A DNA stretch of 64,000 nt, from positions 620,001-684,000 of the forward strand of contig NZ_CP096120.1 in NCBI RefSeq assembly GCF_023158935.1, in the 5' to 3' direction. The stretch is from Acinetobacter portensis (GTDB lineage Bacteria > Pseudomonadota > Gammaproteobacteria > Pseudomonadales > Moraxellaceae). The position numbers were made by a program, and so were the translations under genes. Shown here in pieces: positions 16,591 to 46,186 of this stretch (the first letter of the stretch is position 1; each line of letters begins with the position of its first letter). The notes beneath the pieces are model-generated. The model saw only the letters and a list, made by a program, of their open reading frames with translations, was not told the origin of the DNA and did not search any database.

Positions 16591-17744
16591 GCTTGTTAAA
16601 TCATTATGCAGAAGTTTTAGATGGGCTTAAGAAACAAGGTAATTTCCGACAGTTTAAATCGAACATTCAACGTGGTCGTTATATTGAAATCAATCAGCAG
16701 AATATGCTGAATTTATCTTCTAATGACTATTTAGGTTTGGCATCGAATGAACAATTACGCGAACAATTTTTTGATGAAACACCAAATTCTCAGCGTGTAA
16801 TGAGCTCGTCATCTTCAAGATTACTCACGGGTAATTTTCCTGAATATGAACAGCTTGAGCAAAATTTAAGTCAACTATTTCATGGGCGATCTGCATTGTT
16901 ATTTAACAGTGGTTATCACATGAATATTGGTATTTTACCTGCTATTTGTGATGGTAAAACTTTGGTGTTTGCCGATAAATTGGTACATGCCAGTATTATT
17001 GATGGTATTCGTTTATCTTCTGCGAAATATGTGCGTTATCGTCATAATGATTTACAGCATTTAGAGAATTTGCTTGAAAGCTACCATGCAGATGAAAGCA
17101 TTCAACGCATTATTGTGGTCACTGAGTCCATTTTTAGTATGGATGGTGATGAAACGAACTTACGTGCTTTGGTTAATCTGAAACATCAATATTCAAAAGT
17201 CATGCTTTATGTTGATGAAGCCCATGCAATCGGTGTGCGTGGTCAACAAGGCTTGGGCTGTGCTGAAGAATATGATGTTATTGATGATATCGACTTTTTA
17301 GTGGGAACATTTGGTAAGGCACTTGCATCGGTAGGTGGTTATTTAATTTGTCATGAAATTATTCGTGATTATTTAATTAATACTATGCGCCCCCTAATTT
17401 TTAGTACCGCACAGCCACCTATTTCTATGGCATGGACTCAATTCATATTAAAGCATGTTATCACTATGCAAACAGAGCGAAAGCATTTGCAAAGTATGAG
17501 TAAGCAATTAATAGATCAAGTGAAACAGAAAGGGTTTAATTGCCCATCTACATCGCAAATTGTGCCTGTGATTATTGGTGATTCTCAAGAAACGGTAGAA
17601 AAAGCACAGTACTTACAGCAAGCAGGTTTTTATATTATGCCTGTGCGTCCACCTACTGTACCTAAGGGAAGTTCACGTCTACGCATTTGTCTAAACACAC
17701 ATGTTAAAGATGAAGATTTAGCACAGTTGGTTAAGTTGCTATGA
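16587..17744 (+). CDS. bioF: 8-amino-7-oxononanoate synthase
   Basis: BioF condenses pimeloyl-ACP (or -CoA) with L-alanine to form KAPA. The 385-residue protein is an alpha-oxoamine synthase: [11 protein letters not shown] near 42-52, [11 protein letters not shown]-type loop near 72-82, the histidine that stacks on PLP in [18 protein letters not shown], and the PLP lysine K244 in [13 protein letters not shown]. It overlaps bioA at its start and bioC at its end by four bases each. Confidence 0.96.
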
Positions 17745-40025: not shown

Positions 40026-41387
40026 TTAAATTTCTATATCTTTAATTAATAATTCAAACTTTTGAATTTCTTCTTCTAAGTGGGTAAGTAAGTTCTGCAT
40101 TTTAGGCAAAGCATTGCGACATGCAGTTAAACCAACTTCCAACTTATCTAAATAGCTTGTCATTGTAATATTAAGTGCCTGACCATCTAACACAATAGAA
40201 GCAGGGTACAAGGCATCTAATTTTGCACCATTCCAGTATAAAGGCTCAGATGGCCCTGGAACATTCGAAATAACAAGATTGAATGCTTGACGCTTTGGCA
40301 TTAAGCCAGATGCAATATTCAAACCTGCTGCACTATAAACAAAAGCACTATAATTTAGAATTTGACTTGAGTTCATACGCTTAAATTTTTGTTTCGCATT
40401 TAACATACTACGACGAATTATTTGTAAGCGTTCTAAAGGCTCTTCTTTATGTGTACCTAAATTTGCCAAAATCATGGTGATACGGTTTGATAGGTCTGAA
40501 TTATCATCACGCACAGACGCAGGTACCATGGCAATTAATGGTTTCTTTGGCAAAGCATTTTGGCTAATTAAATATTCTCTTAAAGCACCTGAACATACGG
40601 CAAGAACAACGTCGTTAATTGTGACATTGAGTGCTTTTGCAATCGCAGTTAAGCGTGAAAATTCATAAGATTGAGCAGCAAAACGACGTGATGAACTAAC
40701 ACGTTGATTTAAAATACTACTTGGTGCTTGAAAGCTAGAAACATAATCAGGGTTACGACCAATATCTTTGGTAATAGTTTGAGATAATTCGTAAAGCACG
40801 CCAGGAGTCGATTCTAATTGGCTTTTTACCGTAGAGATAAAGCCTTTAATTTTGCTCGATTTAGGCTGTTTTAAGCGTTTTGCACGAGGTCCTTCAACAC
40901 ACCAAGGCGGAACAATGCTTTTCGCATCTGGATCGTGTGATAAAGATTTTTCAACAAGGCGCATGCCTGCAATACCATCTACCATTGCATGATGTATTTT
41001 GAAATACATTGCAAAGCGATTGCCTTCAATACCTTCAATAATATTGCATGTCCATAAAGGCTTGGCACGATCAATTAGTGCGCTGTGTTCTTGTGAAATA
41101 TAAGTGAGTAATTCACGAATACGACCAGGTTGTGGAAGTGCAATATGTCTAAAATGATGATCTAAATCGAACTCTTGGTCTTCATCCCAAAATAATCCAT
41201 TCAATTTATTGTTAAAAGGCGGAATAGGAATAGATTTTGAAGTGCGAATGTCGGCAACTAAGTCTTGAATAAAAGAAGTAGGCGCATTATCTGGAATTTG
41301 GAATAAAAAAAGACCGCCTACATGCATAGGTTGTTGACGTTTTTCTAGGGAAAGAAAAATAAAATCAATCGGGTGTAATGGACGCAT
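40026..41387 (-). CDS. wax-dgaT: Wax ester synthase/acyl-CoA:diacylglycerol acyltransferase (WS/DGAT)
   Basis: This bifunctional enzyme (AtfA) joins acyl-CoA to long-chain alcohols to make wax esters and to diacylglycerol to make triacylglycerol, the storage lipids of Acinetobacter. The 453-residue protein starts MRPLHPIDFIFLSLEKRQQP and has the catalytic HHxxxDG motif at 132-138 (HHAMVDG). From memory it follows A. baylyi AtfA closely along its length, including NVTINDVVLAVCSGALR and NLVISNVPGP. The N-terminal half carries the acyltransferase site and the C-terminal half the DUF1298-type domain. It is monocistronic. Confidence 0.96.
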   Translation of the reverse strand: MRPLHPIDFIFLSLEKRQQPMHVGGLFLFQIPDNAPTSFIQDLVADIRTSKSIPIPPFNNKLNGLFWDEDQEFDLDHHFRHIALPQPGRIRELLTYISQEHSALIDRAKPLWTCNIIEGIEGNRFAMYFKIHHAMVDGIAGMRLVEKSLSHDPDAKSIVPPWCVEGPRAKRLKQPKSSKIKGFISTVKSQLESTPGVLYELSQTITKDIGRNPDYVSSFQAPSSILNQRVSSSRRFAAQSYEFSRLTAIAKALNVTINDVVLAVCSGALREYLISQNALPKKPLIAMVPASVRDDNSDLSNRITMILANLGTHKEEPLERLQIIRRSMLNAKQKFKRMNSSQILNYSAFVYSAAGLNIASGLMPKRQAFNLVISNVPGPSEPLYWNGAKLDALYPASIVLDGQALNITMTSYLDKLEVGLTACRNALPKMQNLLTHLEEEIQKFELLIKDIEI

Positions 41388-43175: not shown

Positions 43176-44309
43176 TTAGAAACGGTAGCCAATTTTCATA
43201 CCGTAACCAAGTGCATAGTTATTAGAGAACTCACCAGCAGTATTACCACCAGTTTGTGCAGTTGCATCGCCTAACCAGAAGTATTTAACACCAGCTTGAA
43301 TGAAATAGTTTTCAGCAGGGCTATATTGACCACCTAAGCCAACACTCCAATAACCTTCAGTTGGACCAAGTGTGGTTACAGGGTTGCCTGCGCCAGAGTC
43401 ATAACCTACAGCAGCAGTAGCCGCCCATTTGCTATTGAATTTATGTGATGCGCCAATAGTTGCTGAGTATTGATCATCTGAATAAGAGATAAGATCTTGA
43501 CCTTGACTTCCAAGAAAAGCAGGGCTTACTACAAATTGATCCCAATGTACCCAACGTAAATTAGCGAATACTAAAGTATTTTGTGAAACACCAGTTTGTA
43601 AGTCAATATTTACAGATTGTGGGGTAACAGCTTCTACAGATGAATAAGTATCATATAAAGGTGTAGCATTGTGATTTTCGAAAGATCTTGCTTTGTGCTT
43701 AATTTCAGAACGATAAGTTACAGCTGCTTTTAAAGCAATTTCAGGTTTTGAATAAGCAAAACCTGCTGCCCAACCATAGGCTTCTTTTTGATCTACTTGG
43801 ATGTTATAACCGCTAAGTGTTTTATTTGGATCTGATCCATATGCATAACCACGTAATGAAATATCAGCTTCAACAGTTTGCCATACTGGACCTGCATAAA
43901 AATTCCAGTTCTTTGTAGGTTGGTAACCAACTAAAGCGGTAATGTTATTGGTACGAACTTTTACGCTAGTGCCTTCAGTACCATCACTGAAAATTGAACC
44001 ATCAACACCATATTGTGCATCTGCGCCAAAAGGTTGGTCGTATAAAAGACCAAATGAAATCTTATCCGTTGCTTGAATTTTTACAGCAGCAGAAGCAAAG
44101 ACATAGTCATCACCCATATCGCTAACGCTTTTACCAGTGGCATCTTTACCCTTTACAGTTGGGTCTAATACAGAAAGACCAGCTTCTGCATAATTACCAG
44201 GCTGTAAAAATGCTGAAATAGATTGACCTGAACGGTCTAAGCCTGCAGCCATTGTGCTTAAAGGCAATGTAATTAGTGTAAGTGCAAGACAAAGTTTGTT
44301 GAGCTTCAT
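43176..44309 (-). CDS. OmpP1/FadL/TodX-family outer membrane protein (copy 1)
   Basis: A 377-residue outer-membrane beta-barrel of the FadL family, which takes up long-chain fatty acids and other hydrophobic compounds. It has a signal peptide (MKLNKLCLALTLITLPLSTMAA, cut near A22), then GLDRSGQSISAFLQPGNYAE, a start typical of this branch, and an amphipathic beta-barrel of about 14 strands ending in the Phe expected for outer-membrane insertion (GMKIGYRF). It is short for FadL (about 420-450). It is a tandem paralogue of the next gene, and the same 12-bp palindrome lies at both promoters. Substrate unknown. Confidence 0.88.
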   Translation of the reverse strand: MKLNKLCLALTLITLPLSTMAAGLDRSGQSISAFLQPGNYAEAGLSVLDPTVKGKDATGKSVSDMGDDYVFASAAVKIQATDKISFGLLYDQPFGADAQYGVDGSIFSDGTEGTSVKVRTNNITALVGYQPTKNWNFYAGPVWQTVEADISLRGYAYGSDPNKTLSGYNIQVDQKEAYGWAAGFAYSKPEIALKAAVTYRSEIKHKARSFENHNATPLYDTYSSVEAVTPQSVNIDLQTGVSQNTLVFANLRWVHWDQFVVSPAFLGSQGQDLISYSDDQYSATIGASHKFNSKWAATAAVGYDSGAGNPVTTLGPTEGYWSVGLGGQYSPAENYFIQAGVKYFWLGDATAQTGGNTAGEFSNNYALGYGMKIGYRF

Positions 44310-44348: not shown

Positions 44349-44381
44349 AAAGTAACATAAATAGAAAAAGAGTAAATACTC
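44349..44381 (-). promoter_or_regulatory. Porin copy 1 promoter with GAGTAAATACTC palindrome
   Basis: On the minus strand TTTACT (44376-44371), 16-base spacer, TG-n-TACTTT extended -10 (44354-44349). The palindrome GAGTA-AA-TACTC at 44370-44381 covers the -35. The layout repeats exactly at copy 2. Confidence 0.65.
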
Positions 44382-44570
44382 GAATTTATAAAAATATAGA
44401 CTTACTAGGTCAAATAAATAAAGATATAGAGTAATTAATCTAAAAAATAAATCTATGTTTATGATTAATAAGTAGAATTATATAAAAGTTGAACTCATGA
44501 AGTTTGTTGTTTGATTGGTTGAAATTTCAACAAATAAAATATGAATATAAACACTTATTCTTTTGTAATA

Positions 44571-44600
44571 AAAAAACCATTCATTTGAATGGTCTTTTTA
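44571..44600 (-). terminator. Terminator of porin copy 2
   Basis: On the minus strand GACCATTCA-AA-TGAATGGTTTTTTT-type stem, 27 bases past the stop of copy 2. Confidence 0.8.
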
Positions 44601-44626
44601 TAATTTTTAACTAGGTGGTAAATTTC

Positions 44627-45784
44627 TTAGAATTTGTAACCAAATTTCAAGCCATAACCAATTGCATGGTTGTCTTTAAATTGACCTACATTATTTTCGA
44701 TAGCTGTAAGACCTTGAGCATCGCCTAGCCAGAAGTATTTGACACCACCTTGAATAAAGTAGTTTGATGCAGGACTAAATTGTGCACCTAGACCTAAGCT
44801 CCAATAACCTTCAGTTGGACCAAGTGTAGTTACAGGGTTACCTGCACCAGAGTCCCAACCCACGGAAACAGTACCCGACCATTTTTCAGTAAATTTACGA
44901 CCTACACCTGTGTTAATGGTCCATTGGTCTTTATTGTATTCCACAAGTGAAGCATTCGGTACGTTTTGACCGAAAAGAGGTGGGGTAATTGAGAAACCAT
45001 CCCAATTTACCCAGCGAACATTAGCAAAAGCTACAGTATTCTCCATGATTCCAGTTTGCAAATCTAAATTTACCGATTGTGGTGTTGTAACTTCAGTAAC
45101 ACCATCAAAACCACCAATTGATATGTTCCGGGCTGTATTTTCATTAGAGCTTAATTCATGTTTTATTTCAGAACGATAGGTTAATGATGCTTTTAGTGCT
45201 ATTTCAGGAATTTGATATGCAACCCCCGCAGCCCAACCCCAGGCATCATCATTTTTCATATTGGCATTATATGCTCCTGCACCTAAGCCTCCATAAGCTA
45301 GGCCTCTTAAGTGTACTTCACCTTTTGCTTGTTGCCATACAGGACCAGCATAAAAGTTCCAATTTGCATTTGGTTGGAAGCCTAAAAGTAAAGTTAAGTT
45401 TTCTGTTGTTACTTCAGCAGAGGTACCTTCTTTCACACTAGTGATAGGGTTAACACTTGAAAAATTATGATCACCTGTGTTGTATTCAGCTTTTGCACCG
45501 AATGGTTGGTCGAACAATAAGCCTACTGAAATATTATCTGTTGCTTGAATTTTTAAAGCGGCAGAAGCTGAATGATAAGAGCTTGCCATATCACCGGTGT
45601 TATTACCATCAGCATCTTTACCAGATACATCTGCATCTAGGACTGAAAGACCTGCTTCTGCGTAGTTACCTGGTTGTAAGAAAGCAGAAATTGATTGACC
45701 TGTACGATCCATTGCTGCAGCAAAAGCGCCAGTCATTGGTACAGTTGCAAGAATCATCGCTACGCTAAGTGTTTTTAATTTCAT
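44627..45784 (-). CDS. OmpP1/FadL/TodX-family outer membrane protein (copy 2)
   Basis: A 385-residue paralogue of the neighbouring gene, sharing DRTGQSISAFLQPGNYAEAG at the mature N-terminus, the central AGPVWQ and SLTYRSEIKH segments and the C-terminal GDSGAGNPVTTLGPTEGYW-like block. Signal peptide MKLKTLSVAMILATVPMTGA, cleavage near FAAA. The end GLKFGYKF carries the terminal Phe signal for the outer membrane. The copies differ mainly in loops. Gene order and promoter layout point to an old tandem duplication. Substrate unknown; hydrophobic compounds are likely by family. Confidence 0.88.
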   Translation of the reverse strand: MKLKTLSVAMILATVPMTGAFAAAMDRTGQSISAFLQPGNYAEAGLSVLDADVSGKDADGNNTGDMASSYHSASAALKIQATDNISVGLLFDQPFGAKAEYNTGDHNFSSVNPITSVKEGTSAEVTTENLTLLLGFQPNANWNFYAGPVWQQAKGEVHLRGLAYGGLGAGAYNANMKNDDAWGWAAGVAYQIPEIALKASLTYRSEIKHELSSNENTARNISIGGFDGVTEVTTPQSVNLDLQTGIMENTVAFANVRWVNWDGFSITPPLFGQNVPNASLVEYNKDQWTINTGVGRKFTEKWSGTVSVGWDSGAGNPVTTLGPTEGYWSLGLGAQFSPASNYFIQGGVKYFWLGDAQGLTAIENNVGQFKDNHAIGYGLKFGYKF

Positions 45785-46186
45785 AGTTCATTGTCCCTTG
45801 AATGTAATTCTTTATCACTTATTTGTTTAGTTTGTGGTGATTGGAGATAACGGCTTTACAAACCGTAATCAAAAGTTACTCCATGCAATAAAAGTATCAC
45901 AATTAAAATAAGAGTAAATACTCTAGAAAATACATATTTAGTAATTTTTGATCGTTTTTGGGTATTTGTGTTAATTTTTTAATACTCTATTTCGTTTAAT
46001 TGTTGATTTATATTGGTTTATTTTTTGAACTATAGGGTCTATAAAAAAATTAAAATATTTATTTTTTTGTAATAAATGGGCTTTTTTGAGGCGAAAGAAT
46101 GCTTGATATATCACATTTTAATATATAGGTAGAAAAAATTGATTGTTTATAGCGCTAAAAGCTTTGATTCTTTTAAATGAAAAGGG
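45785..46186. other. Intergenic region upstream of porin copy 2
   Basis: Contains the copy 2 promoter with palindrome (45891-45923), a hairpin in its predicted leader (GATAACGG at 45846-45853 with CCGTAATC at 45863-45870), and otherwise AT-rich DNA up to the tRNA. No coding region. Confidence 0.65.
45891..45923 (-). promoter_or_regulatory. Porin copy 2 promoter with GAGTAAATACTC palindrome
   Basis: On the minus strand TTTACT (45918-45913), 16-base spacer, TG-n-TACTTT (45896-45891). The palindrome at 45912-45923 (extended to AGAGTAAATACTCT, 45911-45924) covers the -35, as at copy 1. The predicted leader is about 100 bases. Confidence 0.65.

Follow-up and report, generated by a model that had tools for sequence, protein, structure and literature searches.

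The two tandem genes for FadL-like outer membrane proteins in the window (the whole 64,000-nucleotide stretch of Acinetobacter portensis DNA analysed here) are preceded by copies of an operator that also lies upstream of a TetR-type regulator gene, and it is proposed, with a probability of about 0.8, that a LaoR-type TetR repressor controls these porins, and with them hydrophobic uptake, jointly with alcohol and aldehyde oxidation. The site, its positions, its conservation and its co-occurrence with the TetR and aldehyde dehydrogenase (ALDH) genes are observed directly in the genomes. A preliminary description of this DNA had suggested a shared operator and one regulon for both FadL-like porins; this is supported at the sequence level, with a TetR candidate and conserved porin sites. 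A regulon of two porins, however, proved too narrow: both porins would belong to it, and sites are also present before the ALDH gene, before a pair encoding an SCP2-like protein and an iron-containing alcohol dehydrogenase (iron-ADH), and before the TetR gene itself. The features of the porin locus are listed here, with scores from the TetR-trained matrix described below.

45956..45975, no strand assigned: degenerate remnant of an operator, first gene; 14 of 20 consensus matches, matrix score -1.1
45908..45927, no strand assigned: operator, first gene; core 45912-45923, over the -35; one mismatch to TTTAGAGYAWWTRCTCTWAW; matrix score 18.0, second in the window
45891..45918, minus strand: putative promoter, first gene; TTTACT 45913-45918, 16-nt spacer with the end TGA, TACTTT 45891-45896; conserved layout
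44627..45784, minus strand: first tandem gene, FadL-like outer membrane protein P0002, 385 aa; open reading frame, AlphaFold2 model FadL-like
44425..44444, no strand assigned: upstream operator, second gene; two mismatches to TTAGAGTAWWTACTCTAA; matrix score 19.4, the best in the window
44366..44385, no strand assigned: promoter-proximal operator, second gene; core 44370-44381, over the -35; matrix score 10.7
44349..44376, minus strand: putative promoter, second gene; TTTACT 44371-44376, 16-nt spacer with the end TGT, TACTTT 44349-44354; conserved layout
43176..44309, minus strand: second tandem gene, FadL-like outer membrane protein P0001, 377 aa; open reading frame, 58% identical to P0002

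Neither P0001 nor P0002 matched a family in Pfam (E<=0.001) or NCBIfam (E<=1), P0001 having one sub-threshold match to YadA_anchor. Because these libraries failed to recognise the porins, the fold was tested by an AlphaFold2 model of P0002 (mean pLDDT 74). In a Foldseek search against the PDB, FadL was the best match to this model (E 1.1e-19, TM 0.72), and the first 18 PDB chains comprised 17 FadL chains and one P. aeruginosa FadL homologue; the model thus backs the FadL barrel fold, and the label "FadL-like" originally given to the porins is retained. Another FadL-type outer membrane transporter of Acinetobacter, AltL, is mentioned in PMC11784139; APR1, the regulator treated in that paper, is an AraC-type protein that controls almA, unlike the TetR-type protein considered here.

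The element first described, the 12-mer GAGTAAATACTC, has two exact copies in the window (44370-44381 and 45912-45923), and these indeed have an identical placement before both porins. On the minus strand, each copy overlaps TTTACT, which is followed by a 16-base spacer with a TG-n end and then by TACTTT. The element had also been called a palindrome, which is right as regards its 5-bp arms, GAGTA/TACTC, but it has a 2-bp centre and is only a pseudo-palindrome. At better genomic sites, the 12-mer is the central part of a longer palindrome, TTTAGAGTAWWTACTCTAAA, whose length of 20 bp is the usual size for sites of TetR dimers. A generic sigma-70 scan listed neither of the two putative porin promoters.

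A search of the whole 3.03-Mb genome found GAGTAWWTACTC at four places, each of them before a gene, against one match for the reversed control. Two of these places are the porins; the others are the gap between the ALDH and TetR genes (locus L005) and the front of the SCP2-like/iron-ADH pair (locus L006), and both of the latter have the full 20-bp palindrome. The first gene of the pair at L006 encodes a product of 177 aa that matches SCP2 below the threshold, and the gene for the iron-containing alcohol dehydrogenase comes after it. With the 18-mer at up to three mismatches, the A. portensis genome has 14 sites versus 16 for the reversed control, which is no excess; weight is therefore placed on strong sites only, weak sites not being callable by count. 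Among 119 Acinetobacter genomes, GAGTAWWTACTC occurs 469 times versus 119 for the reversed control, the sites exceeding the control matches in 104 genomes and being fewer in five, with six genomes having none. Similarly, TTTAGAGYAWWTRCTCTWAW at up to two mismatches gave 89 forward matches versus 17 for the reversed control in 17 genomes.

The TetR gene (L005:2754-3443) encodes a protein of 229 aa with PF00440 and PF13972 above the cut-off, and has the operator in the gap that it shares with the divergent, LaoC-like ALDH gene. It is present in 117 of the 119 Acinetobacter genomes. In Acinetobacter-type loci (the best 80 of 116, of which 79 are titled Acinetobacter and one Moraxellaceae bacterium), the operator was found upstream of TetR in 80/80, matching at 17-20 of 20 positions and comprising 17 distinct sites, the consensus used for picking them having been derived from the sites of the A. 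portensis genome, porins included. A locus of A. baylyi (L117) has this TetR with an operator matching at 20 of 20 positions. All 80 loci likewise have an ALDH match, and all have the layout of autoregulation, with the operator upstream of the regulator's own gene. Since one TetR gene lies behind the same operator in every one of these loci, its product is a candidate for the regulator. Among PDB sequences, the closest to this protein is 3nnr (E 3.7e-45), a TetR-family structure listed as transcriptional regulator only. In Dietzia, judging by the title of a 2016 article by Liang et al., an autoregulated TetR repressor reportedly controls alkane degradation; by this title, it resembles the TetR described here, for which autoregulation is predicted, and differs in coming from a Gram-positive organism. 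A matrix was built solely from the 17 distinct TetR-promoter sites, and its top matches in the window start at 44425 (19.4), 45908 (18.0), 17060 (13.3) and 44366 (10.7), the porin sites ranking first, second and fourth.

When 244 genomes of the order were searched at E<=1e-40, homologues of this TetR, 35-47% identical, were found in 59, the A. portensis genome included. Of the 58 other order genomes with a TetR match, 29 loci were read, with longer loci for 20 of these. In these loci from other Pseudomonadales, the operator lies upstream of TetR in 23 of 29; every one of the 22 that have an ALDH gene next to TetR is among the 23. The order loci have TetR, a divergent ALDH gene and then the LaoB-like and GMC genes; ALDH, LaoB-like and GMC (LaoA-like) genes are all near TetR in 16 of the 20 longer loci, the label "LaoB-like" being based on position and on resemblance to a single protein of 181 aa that matches no Pfam family. 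The six TetRs without a site (L224, L225, L229, L231, L238 and L241) are all from family f29. They were considered as unrelated paralogues, a view rejected on the shared stretch SPGNLYYH, which is present in 29/29 order TetRs and which we take to be part of the recognition helix. Seven genomes in which TetR is not beside ALDH have the operator beside ALDH instead (L336, L338-L343); these include five of the six genomes with site-less TetRs (L338, L340-L343) and G184, a further genome of family f29 (L339), while the sixth, G244, has no operator at up to one mismatch. At the same threshold, the operator was found in 23 of 24 order genomes with TetR (out of 58) versus 2 of 16 without a TetR match at E<=1e-40 (out of 185), with a Fisher p of 7e-8 and 0/40 for the reversed control; this contrast is not independent of the 23/29 count, because most of the 24 are the same genomes.

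The association of operator and regulator bears on the alternative that survives best, in which the operator is real and either the porins use another regulator of the same specificity or TetR acts as an activator. This is considered improbable. It is favoured by the position of the second gene's best site (44425-44444), which is upstream of the promoter, where activators also bind, and by the large number of TetR-type proteins, one of which, in the A. portensis genome, is encoded behind a weaker operator-like site (L193). However, the porin sites agree with the matrix derived from the promoters of this TetR, the -35 is overlapped by the proximal sites, and the operator tracks the presence of this TetR across the order genomes, as given above.

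As in Acinetobacter, the LaoABCR system of P. aeruginosa (PA0364-PA0367), which oxidises long-chain alcohols, has a TetR regulator (LaoR, PA0367) adjoining an ALDH gene and is concerned with alcohol and aldehyde oxidation. PMC7318663 describes the grouping of TetR, ALDH, LaoB and LaoA in P. aeruginosa, Oleispira and Alcanivorax. In Acinetobacter, in contrast, GMC (LaoA) or LaoB-like genes are beside TetR in 0/80 loci (flanks up to 4 kb a side), and the operator is found instead at the separate SCP2-like/iron-ADH pair and at the FadL porins. The gene order and the operator shared with other Pseudomonadales suggest that this TetR is apparently the Acinetobacter counterpart of LaoR. For the P. 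aeruginosa system, long-chain acyl-CoA is given as the inducer in PMC10779009, citing Panasia 2019. In P. putida evolved on long-chain alcohols, PMC13291428 describes a G-to-A mutation that arose repeatedly in the interval from PP_5119 (regulator) to PP_5120 (ALDH) under selection on C16/C20 alcohols, and growth unaffected by deletion of the LaoAB homologues.

Conservation of the palindrome was examined at the porin genes of the tandem locus in the window and in 32 relatives, which are all those with a match (33) except G030. These loci have 56 porin-family ORFs (>=250 aa, tandem locus only), and 54 promoters remained after two ORFs of L179 without a mappable start were left aside; p-values were obtained per promoter against 200 first-order-Markov random sequences each. 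With the TetR-trained matrix, 39 of the 54 porin promoters have a match at p<=0.01 and 42 at p<=0.05, with 12 at p>0.05, these not being independent tests because the sequences are related. The palindrome is thus retained in most of the orthologous promoters examined, as expected of the operator initially suggested. At the proximal site of the second gene (44366..44385), the core is retained in many orthologues and the outer flanks poorly, the window's copy being weak outside the core (10.7); in relatives, most counterparts of the first-gene operator fall between about -137 and -155.

Of the 54 porin promoters, 44 show the layout TTTACT-N-TGnTA, and a minimum of four (L163, L166, L167 and L187) have kept it without a matching palindrome (p>0.05). 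This, together with the paralogy of the two porins (58% identity), would fit a promoter element copied by porin duplication, in which TTTACT and the extended -10 are under selection and the palindrome is incidental. Such an origin is held to be less probable still than a different regulator or mode of action, as the full 20-bp palindrome is found at the ALDH/TetR and SCP2/iron-ADH promoters, which are not porin duplicates, and upstream of TetR in all 80 Acinetobacter-type loci and in other genera. Furthermore, the TAGA in the left half of the palindrome, which is outside the promoter hexamers, is conserved in 23 of 28 distinct first-gene-type promoters. In L163, L166 and L167 the left half is gone and the layout is retained, which shows that the promoter can exist without the operator. 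Chance occurrence of an A+T-rich 12-mer, for which the merely mild enrichment at up to two mismatches speaks (9 matches in the window versus 4.4 expected), can be dismissed as a negligible prospect, given two exact copies versus 0.005 (first-order Markov) to 0.014 (base composition) expected in 64 kb on both strands, and conservation in most orthologous promoters.

One operator per porin had originally been described, which is correct for the proximal sites; the second gene, however, has a further, better-scoring operator (44425-44444) that was overlooked, with its centre 59 bp upstream of the centre of the proximal one. Of 14 second-gene-type promoters, 13 have an equivalent upstream site at 59-61 bp and the remaining one has it at 41 bp, and the mean match at 61 bp is 4.2 s.d. 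above the mean over all spacings. Among 28 distinct first-gene-type promoters, the strongest match upstream of the operator is 48-49 bp away from it in 12, the window's included. As a group, their average match does not single out this spacing (not significant), and no general claim of paired sites is therefore made for them; the remnant at 45956..45975 is probably non-functional in the window. Where operators are paired, cooperative binding or looping is possible.

The regulon was surveyed in 11 genomes (10 of 16 relatives and A. portensis), among the matches listed. The operator is present before ALDH/TetR and before the SCP2-like gene in 11/11, the presence of the iron-ADH gene behind the latter having been checked in the A. 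portensis genome. Among the same matches, it also precedes a gene of the SDR family in at least nine of the 11 genomes, a putative lipoprotein gene in at least eight, with weaker sites, a flavin oxidoreductase gene (PF00724) in at least six and a gene for an HD-domain protein in at least three. The SDR orthologue of A. portensis (82% identical) has no operator site, unlike that of nine relatives; the putative lipoprotein of the relatives was not found in this genome, and its best match to the flavin oxidoreductase is only 34% identical. The iron-ADH of L006 was also compared with ADH6 of A. baumannii (PMC8465190), which has the same length; no link could be established, a printed primer having no match in L006 at up to three mismatches.

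From these arrangements we infer binding, repression, an inducer and a physiological role for the LaoR-type regulator. A TetR dimer would bind TTTAGAGYAWWTRCTCTAAA-like sites and, at the porins, cover the -35 and exclude RNA polymerase; a repressor role fits both the TetR family and the overlap with the -35. The same protein would also sit at its own gene and the divergent ALDH gene, and before the SCP2-like/iron-ADH pair. Accumulation of a product of long-chain lipid or alcohol breakdown, by analogy with Pseudomonas a long-chain acyl-CoA, would release TetR and so switch on uptake across the outer membrane together with the oxidation of alcohols and aldehydes. The balance tips slightly towards a more specific proposal, in which Acinetobacter has rebuilt the LaoR regulon, with LaoA and LaoB absent beside the regulator and with the iron-ADH/SCP2 pair and the tandem FadL porins captured, so that one repressor, probably sensing acyl-CoA, would gate uptake and oxidation through paired operators, as at the second porin (59-61 bp, 13/14).

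In searches of one open-licence library, no paper was found on TetR control of FadL-type hydrophobic uptake in Acinetobacter or on this regulator in the genus, and a text search with the core sequences returned no paper on a bacterial operator, judged by title. The genus is used in hydrocarbon clean-up and for wax esters and includes hospital pathogens, and the analysis provides a candidate regulator together with the sequence of its proposed operator and a list of candidate targets. In addition, an operator common to several genera of Pseudomonadales can point to LaoR-type regulons in further genomes.

Other sites and genes were observed in the window and elsewhere. A gene for a wax ester synthase/DGAT (40026-41387) is close to the porins, and none of the window's eight best matrix matches is an operator-like site near it. 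The third-best match of the window (13.3) is TTTAGAGAATTTGCTTGAAA at 17060-17079. The weaker site mentioned above, L193 ~2186-2205 (G000:C1:32185-32204; score 14.2), is in the A. portensis genome before what by eye looks like another TetR-type gene. In one relative (L286), two operator-like sites 176 bp apart are near a gene resembling, by eye, a trimeric autotransporter adhesin. The A. portensis genome also has an operator-like site with two mismatches and a matrix score of 17.4 at L192 ~1928-1947 (G000:C1:1280427-1280446), flanked by divergent genes that by eye seem to encode a drug-type MFS transporter and a desaturase, and this may represent a further target.
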